This document shows, in pieces, positions 51,718-56,589 of a stretch of 64,000 nucleotides of DNA (its first letter is position 1; every line of letters starts with the position of its first letter). Below the pieces are notes generated by a model. The model was not told the origin of the DNA, made no database searches, and saw only the letters and a list, made by a program, of their open reading frames with translations. The DNA comes from Flavobacterium beibuense (GTDB taxonomy: Bacteria > Bacteroidota > Bacteroidia > Flavobacteriales > Flavobacteriaceae): contig NZ_JUIW01000001.1 in the NCBI RefSeq assembly GCF_004151245.1, positions 62,001 to 126,000 of the forward strand. Reading direction: 5' to 3'. The translations under genes were made by a program, and so were the position numbers.

Positions 51718-52521
51718 ATGGGTGAAGGTTTAAAGTATGAACAGTTTACAAGGGATATATATCAGACTTTGTTGGAAAGAGAAGGCTTAACTGTCGATGT
51801 ACAACATAATTTAAAAATTAAAGGTAAAGCTACTTTTCATCAAATAGATGTTTATTGGGAGTGTAAAGTTGGACTGGGTATTCATAAAGTAGCAATAGAG
51901 TGTAAAAACTATAATAAGAATTTATCGGTAGGGCGAGTTAAAGAATTTTGGAGTTCAATTTCTGATATAGGTAATATTAATGGAATAATGGTAACGTCAA
52001 AAGGATACCAAAAAGGAGCTAAAGAATTTGCAGAATATTATGGGATTAAATTGGTTGTTTTACGTGAAACTATTGACGAGGATTGGGAAGGAAGAGTTAG
52101 ATATCTTACGACTACTATTGAATCAATTTCTAGTAAGGTCACAAATATTTATATTAAACTGGATAAAGAATGGATGTTTGAGAAGTTTAAGGGAAAAATA
52201 TCTGATAATTTAAATTTAAAGCTTAATTTGACTAATGAATTTATGGTTGTTGATTCTAAAGGTGCTAAAGTAAATTCTTTGCTTGAATTAGAAGATAGAT
52301 TACCTATTTTGGATAGTGAAGCAAAGCAAGGGTTAAAACATTTTTATACTTTTAATGATTCGTATATAATTACTGAAATGTTTGGGATGGTAAAAATTGT
52401 AGGTATTGAATTTACTTATAATATTTCAGTTGGTAAAATGAAGTTTGACTATGATGGTAAAGAAACTGCTAAAGCAATTATGAAAGATGTTTTATCAGGT
52501 GAAATTAACTTTGTTCGATGA
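51718..52521 (+). CDS. Mrr-like restriction-endonuclease-fold protein
   Basis: A 267-residue protein whose first ~115 residues match the Mrr catalytic fold of the PD-(D/E)xK nucleases. Asp44 lies in HQIDVYWE, and Glu61 and Lys63 in AIECKNYNK form the ExK catalytic pair; LSVGRVKEFWSS and VTSKGYQKGAKEFAEYYG follow as the usual alpha-beta elements. The C-terminal 150 residues are of unknown type and may be a sensing or DNA-contact domain. No methyltransferase is adjacent. Base composition is more AT-rich than in the neighbours, a possible sign of transfer. It is 24 bp after radC and closed by a terminator. A type IV-like defence role is inferred, not shown. Confidence 0.75.
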   Translation: MGEGLKYEQFTRDIYQTLLEREGLTVDVQHNLKIKGKATFHQIDVYWECKVGLGIHKVAIECKNYNKNLSVGRVKEFWSSISDIGNINGIMVTSKGYQKGAKEFAEYYGIKLVVLRETIDEDWEGRVRYLTTTIESISSKVTNIYIKLDKEWMFEKFKGKISDNLNLKLNLTNEFMVVDSKGAKVNSLLELEDRLPILDSEAKQGLKHFYTFNDSYIITEMFGMVKIVGIEFTYNISVGKMKFDYDGKETAKAIMKDVLSGEINFVR

Positions 52522-52534
52522 TATTAATCTTTAT

Positions 52535-52568
52535 GACAAAGCGGGCAATATGCCCGCTTTGTTTTTAT
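52535..52568 (+). terminator. Terminator after the Mrr-like gene
   Basis: CAAAGCGGGCA-ATA-TGCCCGCTTTG followed by TTTTTATTT; the stem is GC-rich and perfect. It overlaps the end of the convergent NAD(P)-binding gene. Confidence 0.88.
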
Positions 52569-53203
52569 TTGTTGGCTATAAAAGGAGCCTGCCTTATGTA
52601 GGCTTCATCAGTAAGCAGCTTAATTAAAAACTGCGCCAGTGAGGTAGCGCTTATCTTACTGCCGGGACAGTCTGTAAGGCTTATGGCAATTTCCGGAGAT
52701 TCTTCGGTTAAGTCAATCATCGGGAGTCTTACCATAGTCCAGTCTGTAATGCTTTCTGTTAGCATCTCATATTCTTTCTGCTTGTTTTTTGTGGTAGCGG
52801 GAAAATGCTCATACATCCAGTTGGTGGCTGCTTTAGAGTTAGGGCTTTTATTATCGGTAGGAGTATCTACATTCAATCCTGTAATAACAATGTATCGGTT
52901 TATATTCAGCTTATTCATTGCAGACAGAATATTGCCTGTAGAAGTTGTGAATATATCGATAGGATTTGGTGAGACACCCATACCCAGCACGCTTATAACC
53001 GCATCACAATCTTTTAATATCGAAAGTACATCATCAGGGTTTGAAACATTTCCTGTAATGACTTCGATTTCAGGAAGATTTGTGTTCTCAGGATTTCTAA
53101 ACAACGCCTTAACTTGATAGTTGGTTTTTGCGAGTTCTTCAATAAGGAATTTACCGGCTTTTCCGGTGGCGCCTATAACGGCAATTTTTATAGATGGTTT
53201 CAT
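52565..53203 (-). CDS. NAD(P)-binding (NmrA/SDR-like) oxidoreductase
   Basis: A 212-residue single Rossmann-domain protein of the atypical SDR (NAD(P)H-binding, NmrA-like) type. The glycine-rich loop is VIGATGKAGKFLIEE near the N-terminus, followed by CDAVISVLGMG. The catalytic Tyr-x-x-x-Lys of classical SDRs is absent, so it may sense redox cofactors or reduce an unidentified substrate. Monocistronic; divergent from the ABC operon starting at 53408. Confidence 0.82.
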   Translation of the reverse strand: MKPSIKIAVIGATGKAGKFLIEELAKTNYQVKALFRNPENTNLPEIEVITGNVSNPDDVLSILKDCDAVISVLGMGVSPNPIDIFTTSTGNILSAMNKLNINRYIVITGLNVDTPTDNKSPNSKAATNWMYEHFPATTKNKQKEYEMLTESITDWTMVRLPMIDLTEESPEIAISLTDCPGSKISATSLAQFLIKLLTDEAYIRQAPFIANK

Positions 53204-53334: not shown

Positions 53335-53357
53335 AAATTGTAGGAAGATTACAATTT
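53335..53357. promoter_or_regulatory. Palindromic operator candidate upstream of the His-rich ABC operon
   Basis: AAATTGTA, 7-nt spacer, TACAATTT: perfect 8-bp arms, ending 50 bp before the ATPase start codon, in the only intergenic region before this operon. The 23-bp layout is similar to Fur/Zur-family boxes, but the sequence does not match a known consensus. Confidence 0.45.
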
Positions 53358-53407: not shown

Positions 53408-54037
53408 ATGATTACTACAAAAGATATACGCTTTTCTTACGGGAAAGGCACTTCTTTTCAGTTTCCTGACATAACAGCTTCAAAAGGAGACAGCCTGCTT
53501 ATAACGGGAGGATCGGGAAAAGGAAAAACCACATTGCTGCATTTGCTTGGAGGGCTTTTACGTCCGCAATCGGGAGATGTTTTTATAGATGATACAAGCC
53601 TGTCTGTTTTGTCAGACAGGAAACTCGATCACTTTAGAGGTAAAAACATTGGGTTGGTATTACAGCAATCCTATTTTGTGGCATCACTAAACGTTTTGGA
53701 AAATGTTGTACTGGCATCATGGCTGGCAACAGGACGTCATGCAACAGAAAAAGCTAAGCAGCTTTTAGAACAACTGGATTTAAAAGACCATATGCATAAA
53801 TTGCCTTCTCAGCTTAGTATTGGTCAGCAGCAAAGGGTGTCTATTGCCCGTGCACTTATTAATGAGCCAAAGCTGTTGCTTGCCGATGAACCTACTTCAA
53901 GCCTTGATGATGAAAATGCCTATAAGGTAGCCGATATGCTTTCGGGACTTGCCAAGCAGTTTGGTACTGCACTGGTTATAGTAACTCACGACCAAAGATT
54001 AAAAGACCGTTTCCCTAATCAAATTACGTTATCATGA
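53408..54037 (+). CDS. LolD/MacB-like ABC transporter ATPase
   Basis: Cytoplasmic ATPase (209 aa) of the MacB/LolD/FtsE type that pairs with FtsX-like permeases. Walker A GGSGKGKTT (about 35-43), signature LSIGQQQRV, Walker B LLLADEPTSSLDD and H-loop VTHDQRL are all intact. The start of the permease gene overlaps its stop by 4 bp (ATGA), so translation is coupled. First gene of an apparent five-gene operon ending at 57305. Confidence 0.9.
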   Translation: MITTKDIRFSYGKGTSFQFPDITASKGDSLLITGGSGKGKTTLLHLLGGLLRPQSGDVFIDDTSLSVLSDRKLDHFRGKNIGLVLQQSYFVASLNVLENVVLASWLATGRHATEKAKQLLEQLDLKDHMHKLPSQLSIGQQQRVSIARALINEPKLLLADEPTSSLDDENAYKVADMLSGLAKQFGTALVIVTHDQRLKDRFPNQITLS

Positions 54038-55407
54038 TTACTAAAATAGCCTGGAAAAATATATGGTTTAAGCCACTAAATACACTTCTTAGTATTATCC
54101 TGCTAACAGCGAGTGTGGCCATTATTACCCTTCTTATTTTACTGCAGGATCAGTTTGAAAAGAAATTCAGTGACAATATAGATGGTATAGATATGGTGCT
54201 TGGTGCTCAGGGGAGCCCGTTGCAACTGATACTGTCTTCGGTTTATCAGGTAGATGCTCCAACAGGTAATATAGATTATACCGAAGCTAAAAAATGGATG
54301 AAACACCCGTTTGTGGAAACAGCAATTCCGCTTGCCTTTGGTGATAATTACAGAGGATTTAGGATTGTTGGGACAACTCCGGAATATTTACATAAATATG
54401 GTGCGGAGATAACCAATGGTAAGATTTTCGATAAGAATTTTGAAGTTGTTGTAGGTAGTACAGTGGCACAAAAAATGAATATCAAGGTAGGAGATAAGTT
54501 CTTTGGTTCTCACGGAGATTCAGAAGAAGGTGAGGTGCATGAGAACCATGCCTATATAGTAACTGGTATAGCATCTTCAACAGGTAAGGTGGTAGATAAC
54601 CTTATTCTATGTAATATTCCAAGCGTTTGGGCAATGCATGACCACGAACACGATCATGAAAATGAAGGGGAGGCGGTGGAAGACCATGATCACGAAGGTC
54701 ACGGCCATCACGACCATGAAGCTGCTGAAGAAGCTCATGACCACGAAGACCACATGGCAGCTGAAGAGGAAGGTGAAGAGCATCATCATGAAGATGGCCA
54801 CGATCACGATCATGCAGAAGAAGTTCATGATCATGTGGATATGCCTGTAAGCGAAGAAGGGAAAGAAATAACAGCTGTGCTTATTAAGTTTAAAAGCAAA
54901 ATGGGGATAGTAACCTGGCCAAGGCTTATACCTCAAAATACAAAAATGCAGGGAGCTCTTCCGGCTATAGAGATAAACAGATTGTTTACGCTTTTTGGTA
55001 TAGGCCTTGATGCATTACAGTACCTTGCTTATGGTATTATGCTTATATCGGGTATCAGTATTTTTATTGCCTTGTTCAATACGCTTAAAGAGAGAAAATA
55101 CGAATTTGCCCTGTTGCGCGTTAATGGTGCCAGCAGGCTGCAACTATTAATGCTTGTTCTTATAGAAAGCCTTTTATTATGCGTTACAGGATACATTTTT
55201 GGAACGATTGTTGGGAGGTTAGCATTGAGCTTTATTTCGGGTTCGTCTGAAAGCGAATTTAAAATTTCGTTTAATCCTCTCGAGTTTGTGTGGGAAAAAG
55301 AGGGATATTTATTCCTGCTCACTATCTTTGTAGGGGTTTTAGCGGCGGTTATACCTGCGGTTAAGGCTTACGGATTAAATATTTCAAAAACACTGGCAAA
55401 TGCGTAA
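54034..55407 (+). CDS. FtsX/MacB-like ABC permease with a His-rich extracytoplasmic region
   Basis: A 457-residue permease: one N-terminal membrane helix (about 20-40), a large extracytoplasmic domain, three C-terminal FtsX-type helices (about 330-450) and a final KAYGLN-x-SKTLANA. Residues about 199-270 hold some 21 histidines alternating with Asp/Glu (for example HDHEHDHE, GHGHHDHE, EEHHHEDGHDHDH), a likely metal-binding stretch inside the extracytoplasmic domain. The same kind of ABC-permease/ATPase pair with a His-rich partner protein occurs in zinc-linked clusters of Proteobacteria, from memory. The next gene overlaps by 8 bp. Metal transport or metal-dependent substrate export is inference. 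Confidence 0.85.
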   Translation: MITKIAWKNIWFKPLNTLLSIILLTASVAIITLLILLQDQFEKKFSDNIDGIDMVLGAQGSPLQLILSSVYQVDAPTGNIDYTEAKKWMKHPFVETAIPLAFGDNYRGFRIVGTTPEYLHKYGAEITNGKIFDKNFEVVVGSTVAQKMNIKVGDKFFGSHGDSEEGEVHENHAYIVTGIASSTGKVVDNLILCNIPSVWAMHDHEHDHENEGEAVEDHDHEGHGHHDHEAAEEAHDHEDHMAAEEEGEEHHHEDGHDHDHAEEVHDHVDMPVSEEGKEITAVLIKFKSKMGIVTWPRLIPQNTKMQGALPAIEINRLFTLFGIGLDALQYLAYGIMLISGISIFIALFNTLKERKYEFALLRVNGASRLQLLMLVLIESLLLCVTGYIFGTIVGRLALSFISGSSESEFKISFNPLEFVWEKEGYLFLLTIFVGVLAAVIPAVKAYGLNISKTLANA

Positions 55408-55906
55408 AAATTATTTCATTGTAGCAGTACTTATGTTCTCGGGGTTGATGTTGATGTCATTGCGAACACCTTCTTTACAAAGTTCCGGTTTTACAACTAC
55501 AAACACAGAGGCAGACAATACTGCTGTTTTCTCGGATACCTTATCCTGGAAACTTTTAGGACAAATAAAATATATTAAGAAAGCAACCGATGATTATCCT
55601 GAAGGGGTAATGTTCCCGGTTGTAAACCCTACACTAAAAGCAAAAAGCAAAAAAACTATAATAATGAGCGGCTTTATTATTCCTATTGATAATAAAAGTT
55701 ATGCGCTTAGTAAAAATGTTTTTGCTTCCTGCTTTTTCTGTGGTCAGGCCGGTCCTGAAACCATAATGGGAATTAAGTTTAAAAATCCTAATATGAAGCT
55801 TAAAACCGACCAGTATGTAACGCTGGAAGGTACATTTAGATATAATGACTCTGATGTGGACGACTGGATTTACCACATTGAAAATGCTGTTATTATAAAA
55901 GGGTAA
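55400..55906 (+). CDS. Exported DUF3299-like protein coupled to the His-rich ABC permease
   Basis: A 168-residue exported protein: N-terminal hydrophobic signal (about 1-22), then a small beta-rich domain resembling DUF3299, with SGFIIPIDNK and SCFFCGQAGPETIMGI containing a CxxC. The CxxC could bind metal or form a disulphide. The ATG is 8 bp inside the end of the permease gene and its TAA overlaps the next ATG by one base, so tight translational coupling ties it to the ABC genes. It is probably a periplasmic partner of the transporter. The family assignment is moderate. Confidence 0.68.
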   Translation: MRKNYFIVAVLMFSGLMLMSLRTPSLQSSGFTTTNTEADNTAVFSDTLSWKLLGQIKYIKKATDDYPEGVMFPVVNPTLKAKSKKTIIMSGFIIPIDNKSYALSKNVFASCFFCGQAGPETIMGIKFKNPNMKLKTDQYVTLEGTFRYNDSDVDDWIYHIENAVIIKG

Positions 55907-56589
55907 TGAAGCTAAAGGAAAAGAAAGCAGTGTTTTTTGATCTCGACCATACATTATGGGACTTCGAGAAAAACTCTGCGCTTACTTTTCAGGTAATTCT
56001 TCAAAAGCATAATGTTGAGGTTGATATAGAGATGTTTATAGAGAACTATATTCCTATCAATCTTAAATACTGGAAAATGTATCGCGATGGCCATATCAGT
56101 CAGCAGGAGTTAAGATACAAAAGGCTTAAAGAAGCATTTGTTACTGTAGGATGTGATGTGGAAGATATTATTATTGATAAGCTTTGGGAAGATTATATAG
56201 CTCTTTTGCCTACCTATAATCACTTGTATGAAGGGACTGTAGAGATACTGGAATATTTGAGGCCTAATTACAGCCTTCATATAATTACTAATGGGGTTCA
56301 GGAAATAGCTAAACTTAAAAATGCGGATATTTACCATTATTTTGATACCATAACAAACTCTGAGCAGGCCGGATGTAAAAAGCCGGATGCGAAGATTTTT
56401 GAATATGCCTTAAAAATTGCTAACGTAGAAAAAAATACCGGGGTAATGATAGGCGACTGCATTGAAGCTGATGTTCAGGGTGCCCTGGATTGTGGTTTGG
56501 ATGCAATTTACTTTAACGAAAACAAGCTGGCAGTAAAAGAGGGGATACCCCAGGTTCATAATCTGCTGGAATTAAAAAATTTCCTTTAA
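55906..56589 (+). CDS. yjjG: YjjG-type HAD-superfamily pyrimidine nucleotidase
   Basis: HAD phosphatase of 227 aa with the YjjG/TIGR02254 pattern: motif I FFDLDHTLWDFEKN (the family's DLD[HN]TLWD), motif II ITNGV, motif III Lys in CKKPDAKIF and motif IV IGDCIEADV. E. coli YjjG dephosphorylates noncanonical pyrimidine nucleotides, protecting against mutagenic analogues. Cytoplasmic. The start codon overlaps the DUF3299-like stop by one base; the link to the ABC genes may be positional only. Confidence 0.88.
   Translation: MKLKEKKAVFFDLDHTLWDFEKNSALTFQVILQKHNVEVDIEMFIENYIPINLKYWKMYRDGHISQQELRYKRLKEAFVTVGCDVEDIIIDKLWEDYIALLPTYNHLYEGTVEILEYLRPNYSLHIITNGVQEIAKLKNADIYHYFDTITNSEQAGCKKPDAKIFEYALKIANVEKNTGVMIGDCIEADVQGALDCGLDAIYFNENKLAVKEGIPQVHNLLELKNFL

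Follow-up and report, generated by a model that had tools for sequence, protein, structure and literature searches.

What does an ATP-binding cassette (ABC) transporter do when its permease carries 21 histidines in a single stretch? The question is raised by a three-gene unit of Flavobacterium beibuense, which lies within a window of 64,000 nucleotides (assembly GCF_004151245.1, contig NZ_JUIW01000001.1, positions 62,001 to 126,000 of the forward strand; gene coordinates below are those of the window unless a locus is named). All three genes are on the plus strand: a LolD/FtsE-like ATPase subunit of 209 amino acids (53408..54037; Pfam ABC_tran, E 1.1e-30), a permease of 457 amino acids (54034..55407; Pfam FtsX and MacB_PCD), and an exported OB-fold protein of 168 amino acids (55400..55906), which is a remote DUF3299 relative by its model, with 4hsp/PA4066 as top PDB match, and by a profile match. 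A preliminary description of this DNA had reported that the ATPase and permease genes overlap by 4 bp and the permease and third genes by 8 bp, and the coordinates agree. It had also suggested kinship with PA4063-PA4066 of Pseudomonas aeruginosa and with the Zrg proteins, which is borne out by gene order, by signature residues of the permease, and by PA4066, which leads the structural matches of the third protein. We propose, with a probability of roughly 60%, that the cassette is a Zrg (PA4063-4066) system of a Bacteroidota branch, an ABC machine of the MacB/LolCDE type (type VII) that handles zinc in the periplasm under scarcity.

The most conspicuous feature is the His/Asp/Glu-rich loop at permease residues 199-270 (54628..54843, plus strand). 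It holds 21 histidines, as first counted, of the 26 in the full permease, together with 12 aspartates and 18 glutamates; the next His-richest 72-residue stretch in the window, among 57 non-overlapping open reading frames (ORFs) of at least 100 amino acids, has 8. The AlphaFold2 model of the permease (predicted local distance difference test [pLDDT] 86.8, from 37 sequences) falls below a pLDDT of 50 at residues 213-226 and 228-266, and the stretch is predicted to be a disordered insert of very variable length. It sits in the domain between the first two transmembrane (TM) helices, which should be periplasmic by homology. Far from being absent in all orthologues, histidines occur in the loop region of all 96 aligned Bacteroidota permeases (2 to 32, median 8; the truncated permease of L054 was dropped), where they make up 18.8% of residues versus 1.5% elsewhere. 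The loop region is defined here as lying between the SVWxxH and EITA segments, and the counts include H202. The loop is peculiar neither to this genome nor to Bacteroidota, as two roseobacter DUF3299 loci and phosphatase-linked Alphaproteobacteria carry it.

At the start of the loop is one of four residues that together form a candidate metal site, which we put forward as a new result: D104 (codon 54343..54345), H160 (54511..54513), H169 (54538..54540), and H202 (54637..54639), all on the plus strand. Across three clades, every one of the 111 permeases has D104, H160, D188, and H202, loop or no loop, and H169 is present in 108. None of the four candidate residues is found in 13 other FtsX-type permeases, which were taken from relatives of the window's genome and added to the same alignment; LolC/E and MacB themselves lie outside that alignment. 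D188 occurs in 6 of these 13 controls and is therefore not counted in the signature, and R354, G365, and P441 are present in all 13. Three histidines and one aspartate would make a plausible zinc site. The window permease is homologous to PA4065/ZrgB, with the signature residues in common, and the two fall in separate, well-supported clades.

In its model, the permease has four TM helices (residues 14-49, 310-353, 368-409, and 420-446) with a large domain between TM1 and TM2, which is the architecture of the MacB/LolCDE type. Its leading structural matches are LolCDE (LolE chains come first in the fold search), MacB, an ABC transporter of Streptococcus pneumoniae, and the heme exporter HrtBA; the first row is 5xu1_M (Z 25.3, root-mean-square deviation [rmsd] 7.4, 352 residues aligned). 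Against the NCBIfam equivalogs it reaches 37.1 of 362.45 bits for LolCE, its best model, and 17.9 of 966 bits for MacB, and it is a relative of MacB and LolC/E and neither one proper. The best NCBIfam model of the ATPase is LolD, at 183.3 bits under a cut-off of 307.75. These best models, and the place of LolE in the fold search, would suit a Lol-like machine that releases a lipoprotein or protein, serving a zinc-related exported protein. A gene for a PhoA-type alkaline phosphatase precedes relatives of the cassette in L113-L116, L118, L119, and L134, and such phosphatases are zinc enzymes. We nevertheless consider this explanation quite improbable, given that the scores are far under the LolD and LolC/E cut-offs and that the third protein has no lipobox, as there is no Cys near its N terminus.

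The third protein had been described as DUF3299-like. Remote kinship holds; membership of the family as Pfam draws it does not. The window protein matches no Pfam family up to E 1, and PF11736 (DUF3299, gathering score 22 bits) is matched neither by it nor elsewhere in the window's own genome; 7 of 16 aligned relatives match DUF3299 weakly (best E 0.013). For its model (pLDDT 85.2), the DUF3299 protein PA4066/4hsp is Foldseek rank 1 at E 3e-3, with no match at 1e-3 or better, and it also comes first by VIA-align (Z 8.9, rmsd 3.1, 103 residues aligned), tied with unrelated OB folds. Profile alignment with five DUF3299 proteins by hhalign gives a probability of 94.5, and a sequence search of the PDB with the family returned two chance-level matches, 4hsp not among them. 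The protein is thus a remote DUF3299 relative, under the Pfam threshold. Its family has a motif of its own, CFFCGxxGPE, versus CxHxxxPPxNQ in the five aligned DUF3299 proteins; neither cysteine of CFFC (C111 and C114; 55730..55741, plus strand) varies among the 51 aligned members. Tandem pairs occur on both sides: two genes of the third-gene type in L010 (2765-3711) and L012 (2720-3672), where the first copy has an altered motif (CFFCS, with an extra residue before AG.ET), and two annotated DUF3299 genes behind a ZrgA-type permease in L132 (5259-6259) and L133 (5320-6263).

The three-gene arrangement, for which a search in Bacteroidota had been suggested, recurs widely in the locus set, which comprises the best 80 of at least 584 permease relatives and is Bacteroidota throughout by title. 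An ATPase gene is found no more than 150 bp from the permease gene in 73 of these 80 loci (with a 4-bp overlap in 39); in the other seven it is farther away or absent (L054, L060, L069, L081, L094, where it lies at 229 bp, L102, and L111). The third gene is downstream of the permease in 76 loci, overlapping it by 8 bp in 35 and lying over 30 bp away in 21, and is missing in L060, L069, L081, and L102. In a survey of 247 Bacteroidota genomes from 121 genera (permease threshold E up to 1e-40), the permease was found in 39 genomes, including the window's own, and in 28 genera. Within the genus its occurrence is patchy, with 11 of 36 same-genus relatives matching the permease better than 1e-90.

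ZrgA, the separate His-rich protein of the known systems, behaves differently. PF10986 has no match in the window's own genome up to E 10 and exceeds its cut-off in none of the 247 genomes, with four weak matches under it. We had non-Bacteroidota relatives from plasmid records only; of the 61 that bear ZrgA, 56 come from Phaeobacter, and we examined 5, choosing one for each genus and excluding a Rhodobacteraceae record. The DUF3299-linked proteobacterial sample consists of eight permease loci in which ZrgA was scored by adjacency, without a search of the chromosomes. Where ZrgA adjoins, the loop region has one or two histidines (Phaeobacter L112, 1; Aeromonas L131, 2; Sulfitobacter L132, 1; Pseudooceanicola L133, 1; P. 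aeruginosa L135, 2). Without an adjacent ZrgA it has 16 in Alisedimentitalea (L122) and 14 in Ruegeria (L130), and the alkaline-phosphatase-linked branch, with no ZrgA alongside, has 8 to 13 in four Alphaproteobacteria. A tree of 49 of the 111 permeases (L114 was dropped, its permease being cut short beside an insertion sequence, and there were long-branch warnings) splits Bacteroidota, Zrg-type, and phosphatase-linked permeases into three supported groups (100/99, 100/99, and 100/97), and the loop therefore occurs in three lineages.

From these sequences, it looks as if the His-rich part was exchanged, as a separate ZrgA or a built-in loop, rather than fused. The preliminary description had placed the His-rich function inside the permease as a possible fusion; its presence where no ZrgA is found stands, and the fusion does not: all that resembles a ZrgA domain in the permease is a set of weak, low-complexity matches in the loop. 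We rejected fusion after a hidden Markov model (HMM) of five ZrgA proteins matched only permeases, weakly and with high composition bias (best E 0.004). The same HMM found no separate ZrgA protein among the ORFs of L001-L111 and the window.

A link to zinc had also been proposed, and it is visible in relatives, through Fur, ZigA-like, MerC, and one ZIP neighbor; none of these is at the window locus itself. By phmmer, a Fur-type regulator stands beside the cassette in 18 of the 80 loci (4 Flavobacterium, 9 Pedobacter, 2 Cyclobacteriaceae, 2 Chitinophaga, and 1 Dysgonomonas), and also in L015, outside the 80. MerC-family proteins are near it in 17 (confirmed by Pfam in the 4 loci tested), COG0523-type/ZigA-like GTPases in 15, and at least one of the three types in 22. 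The loci are related to one another, and not independent; with that proviso, chance would give a Fur neighbor in about 0.1-0.4 of 80 loci (from 30 regulator-query matches, or 95 of PF01475, in 61 genomes). The single GTPase scored against NCBIfam, that of L073, has ZigA as its best model (E 1e-161, 538 bits, under a cut-off of 600). In L058, a Flavobacterium metagenome-assembled genome with a window-type HAD gene downstream, a Fur-type gene, MerC, and a ZigA-like gene (in two frames) lie directly upstream, and in Dysgonomonas L109 a ZIP transporter directly follows the trio (Pfam E 2.5e-40). Against NCBIfam, the linked regulators of Bacteroidota all score under the cut-offs, with the Fur model above the Zur model in 3 of 5 scored; the regulator of Phaeobacter has Zur as its closest model (E 7.8e-26, 90.8 bits of 167), and a tree of the Fur proteins showed no resolved grouping. 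In Chitinophaga, the third gene and the Fur gene are separated by a SCO1/SenC-like gene (L068 4911-5537, by Pfam; L089 7044-7706, in the same blast cluster).

A palindrome, TGCAAYTNARTTGCA, which we take to have the shape of a Fur box, is found chiefly in Sphingobacteriaceae, either ahead of the ATPase gene or close to where ZigA-like and MerC genes begin. Exact copies number 10, in 8 of the 80 loci, versus 0 in six Markov controls, and with one mismatch there are 25 sites in 14 loci versus 1-4 in the controls; the pattern was refined on the same loci in which it was counted. It supersedes an earlier, looser box count (two mismatches), which was weak at 30 versus 16-19 in order-1 controls. In four Pedobacter genomes, 6 of the 7 exact sites genome-wide fall in the cassette locus. 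With up to one mismatch, 32 sites in these genomes are off-locus; 11 were examined, of which 8 are inside ORFs, one coincides with the start of a further MerC gene (L162), and two are intergenic (L161 and L163, the latter about 330 bp before an unannotated ORF resembling a TonB receptor). No regulon could be read from these 11 sites.

Several observations weigh against our reading. Half of the Fur cases (9 of 18) are Pedobacter, and these loci are not independent; 58 of the 80 loci have none of the three neighbor types. Of nine linked regulators compared with Pfam, six pass the Fur cut-off, those of L053 and L048 are under it, and that of L058 has no match; these three are called Fur-type because they resemble the L015 regulator (E 2e-16 or better). 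No Fur, MerC, or COG0523 match lies within the 64-kb window, the operon has neither a TGCAAYTNARTTGCA-like box nor a Zur-type box, the window's own genome has no match to the ZigA model, and we found no zinc data for any Bacteroidota member. The reading also presumes that D104, H160, H169, and H202 would come together as one spatial cluster. As for the loop, 17 of 96 have four histidines or fewer, H202 included. Catenovulum L121, with 2 loop-region histidines and no adjacent ZrgA, breaks the alternation, and the Deinococcota L113, L114, and L134, with 1 histidine, have neither a loop nor an adjacent ZrgA.

These poor or missing loops, together with great variation in length and repeat-like growth in some (for example, L048), are what would be expected if the ABC unit were functional and the loop neutral low-complexity sequence. 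The presence of His in every Bacteroidota loop, its enrichment there over the rest of the permease, and the lack of a loop in the five loci with ZrgA argue the other way, and we give neutrality little credence.

Two Fur-family proteins are encoded in the window's own genome, and one alone, that at G000:C7, matches the cassette-linked regulator of L065 (38% identity, E 1.3e-26), a match that does not prove a shared function. We presume zinc repression in this genome. The gene at G000:C7 (L136 5841-6218; Pfam 38.6 bits) is unlinked to the cassette, and its product has CxxC motifs like those of the regulators that adjoin the cassette in relatives. We considered the perfect palindrome AAATTGTA-N7-TACAATTT (53335-53357), about 50 bp before the ATPase start, as a window-specific operator and did not use it; it is not kept in the closest relatives, L002 and L003.

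Under the zinc-handling reading, the complex would consist of two copies each of the ATPase and the permease; homology points to a machine driven by ATP, with moving periplasmic domains. The disordered loop may gather zinc near the membrane and hand it to a fixed site on the periplasmic domain, made up of D104, H160, H169, and H202. ATP-driven motion of this domain would then pass on the zinc, or a zinc-bound partner, and the OB-fold CxxC protein would be the periplasmic partner. Where a separate ZrgA is present, it would do the job of the window's loop. The cassette is a predicted metal binder. More generally, though somewhat short of an even chance, Zrg-type systems could be zinc-specific mechanotransmission ABC complexes that are defined by the Asp/His site of the permease, with an exchangeable His-rich collector, either ZrgA or a loop grown beside H202.

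Could the cassette instead genuinely import zinc through the inner membrane, the loop serving as a built-in substrate-binding element? The lack of ZrgA in the window's genome, and over the cut-off in all 247 surveyed, would suit such an element. Against it stands the permease fold, which is that of LolCDE, MacB, and HrtBA, and these work by mechanotransmission or export. Published work on homologues describes them as zinc regulated (PMC9817125, PMC11481552). In V. cholerae and V. parahaemolyticus the data are read as zinc import with ZrgA as the binding protein: the Zrg operon aids low-zinc growth alongside ZnuABC, and ZrgA is proposed as the solute-binding protein (PMC9820375, PMC9817125). 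Losing PA4065 in a znuA zrmB mutant of P. aeruginosa impairs growth further and increases the need for zinc, with no relevant change in cell zinc (PMC11481552). Taking both sides together, we regard import as unlikely.

The P. aeruginosa data have themselves been read as export of pyochelin-cobalt (PMC11481552), and the cassette could by analogy export a metallophore or a metal-metallophore complex, as proposed for PA4064/PA4065. The MacB-like fold agrees with export, as do the P. aeruginosa genetic data (PMC11481552) and an HlyD/EmrA-like adaptor gene by L122, with a "biotin/lipoyl-binding protein" in the same place in L130. The recurrent identified neighbors in Bacteroidota are zinc-allocation genes, although no search there was aimed at adaptor or metallophore genes and most neighbor clusters are unannotated; we doubt that metallophore export is the function here.

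It is disputed whether zinc import or metallophore export is the task of PA4064/PA4065 and ZrgBC (PMC11481552, PMC9820375, and the preprint PMC11761036). A branch that lacks ZrgA and keeps the four signature residues bears on this dispute. Being without ZrgA and partly linked to zinc genes, the Bacteroidota branch speaks for zinc handling as what Zrg-type systems have in common. If the collector is indeed exchangeable, the role of ZrgA as an importer's substrate-binding protein would not be general, and a large unstudied Bacteroidota branch, with its own CxxC OB-fold partner, would represent a simpler form. The cassette is also a proposed zinc-scarcity system for Bacteroidota; we recognised no description of it there in the openly licensed literature, most of which was not examined in depth.

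The transcript may extend further, as the ORF of a HAD-family hydrolase (55906..56589, plus strand; Pfam Hydrolase, E 4.5e-22) overlaps the third gene by 1 bp. A cluster of HAD-type proteins like that of the window recurs in 34 of the 80 loci, and the hydrolase is a possible fourth gene of the transcript but probably not part of the system. Upstream (51718-53203), the cassette is separated from a RadC-like ORF by a restriction-endonuclease-like ORF (both ORFs assigned by eye) and an NmrA/NAD-binding protein; several relatives have the RadC-like ORF directly upstream of the cassette.

Compared with known systems, the cassette differs from ZnuABC-type importers, whose permease has many TM helices and no periplasmic domain (PMC9820375), unlike the four-TM window permease with its large domain. 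LolCDE and MacB have the same permease fold and ATPase type, and the window proteins score far under the cut-offs of those families. The PhoA-linked branch has an ATPase, a permease, and a CPFC-bearing small protein as in the window type, but the small protein precedes the ATPase, an alkaline phosphatase gene lies upstream, and the Deinococcota have no loop. Its plasmids come from Deinococcota and Alphaproteobacteria, with PF00245 in the three tested (L113, L115, and L118); the small protein matched no Pfam family in the two tested, that of L113 giving only a weak twin-arginine (Tat) signal match.

The roseobacter loci L122 and L130 are like the window in having a His-rich loop at the same place and no adjacent ZrgA, and unlike it in having a full DUF3299 third protein, an adaptor-type gene upstream, and a permease in the Zrg clade. 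The adaptor-type genes (L122 1088-2302, HlyD/EmrA-like by NCBIfam; L130 3176-4285, annotated as biotin/lipoyl-binding) are upstream of the ATPase and would suit a tripartite exporter. ZrgABCDE of Vibrio and the loci L112, L131, L132, and L133 have the same core trio, with ZrgA present and the permease loop absent; Zrg-type permeases are about 25% identical to that of the window. Alongside them stand, in Phaeobacter L112, a Fur-family gene whose closest model is Zur and, in Pseudooceanicola L133, a COG0523 GTPase. In PA4063-PA4066 of P. aeruginosa (L135), PA4063 is a separate His-rich ZrgA, the loop region of the permease has 2 histidines, and PA4066 is a full DUF3299 protein with a CxH motif, unlike the window's third protein. 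The ATPase, permease, and OB-fold protein nevertheless follow one another in the same order as in the window, and PA4065, 25% identical to the window permease, shares the family residues at the positions of D104, H160, H169, D188, and H202 (H169 not being in every family row).

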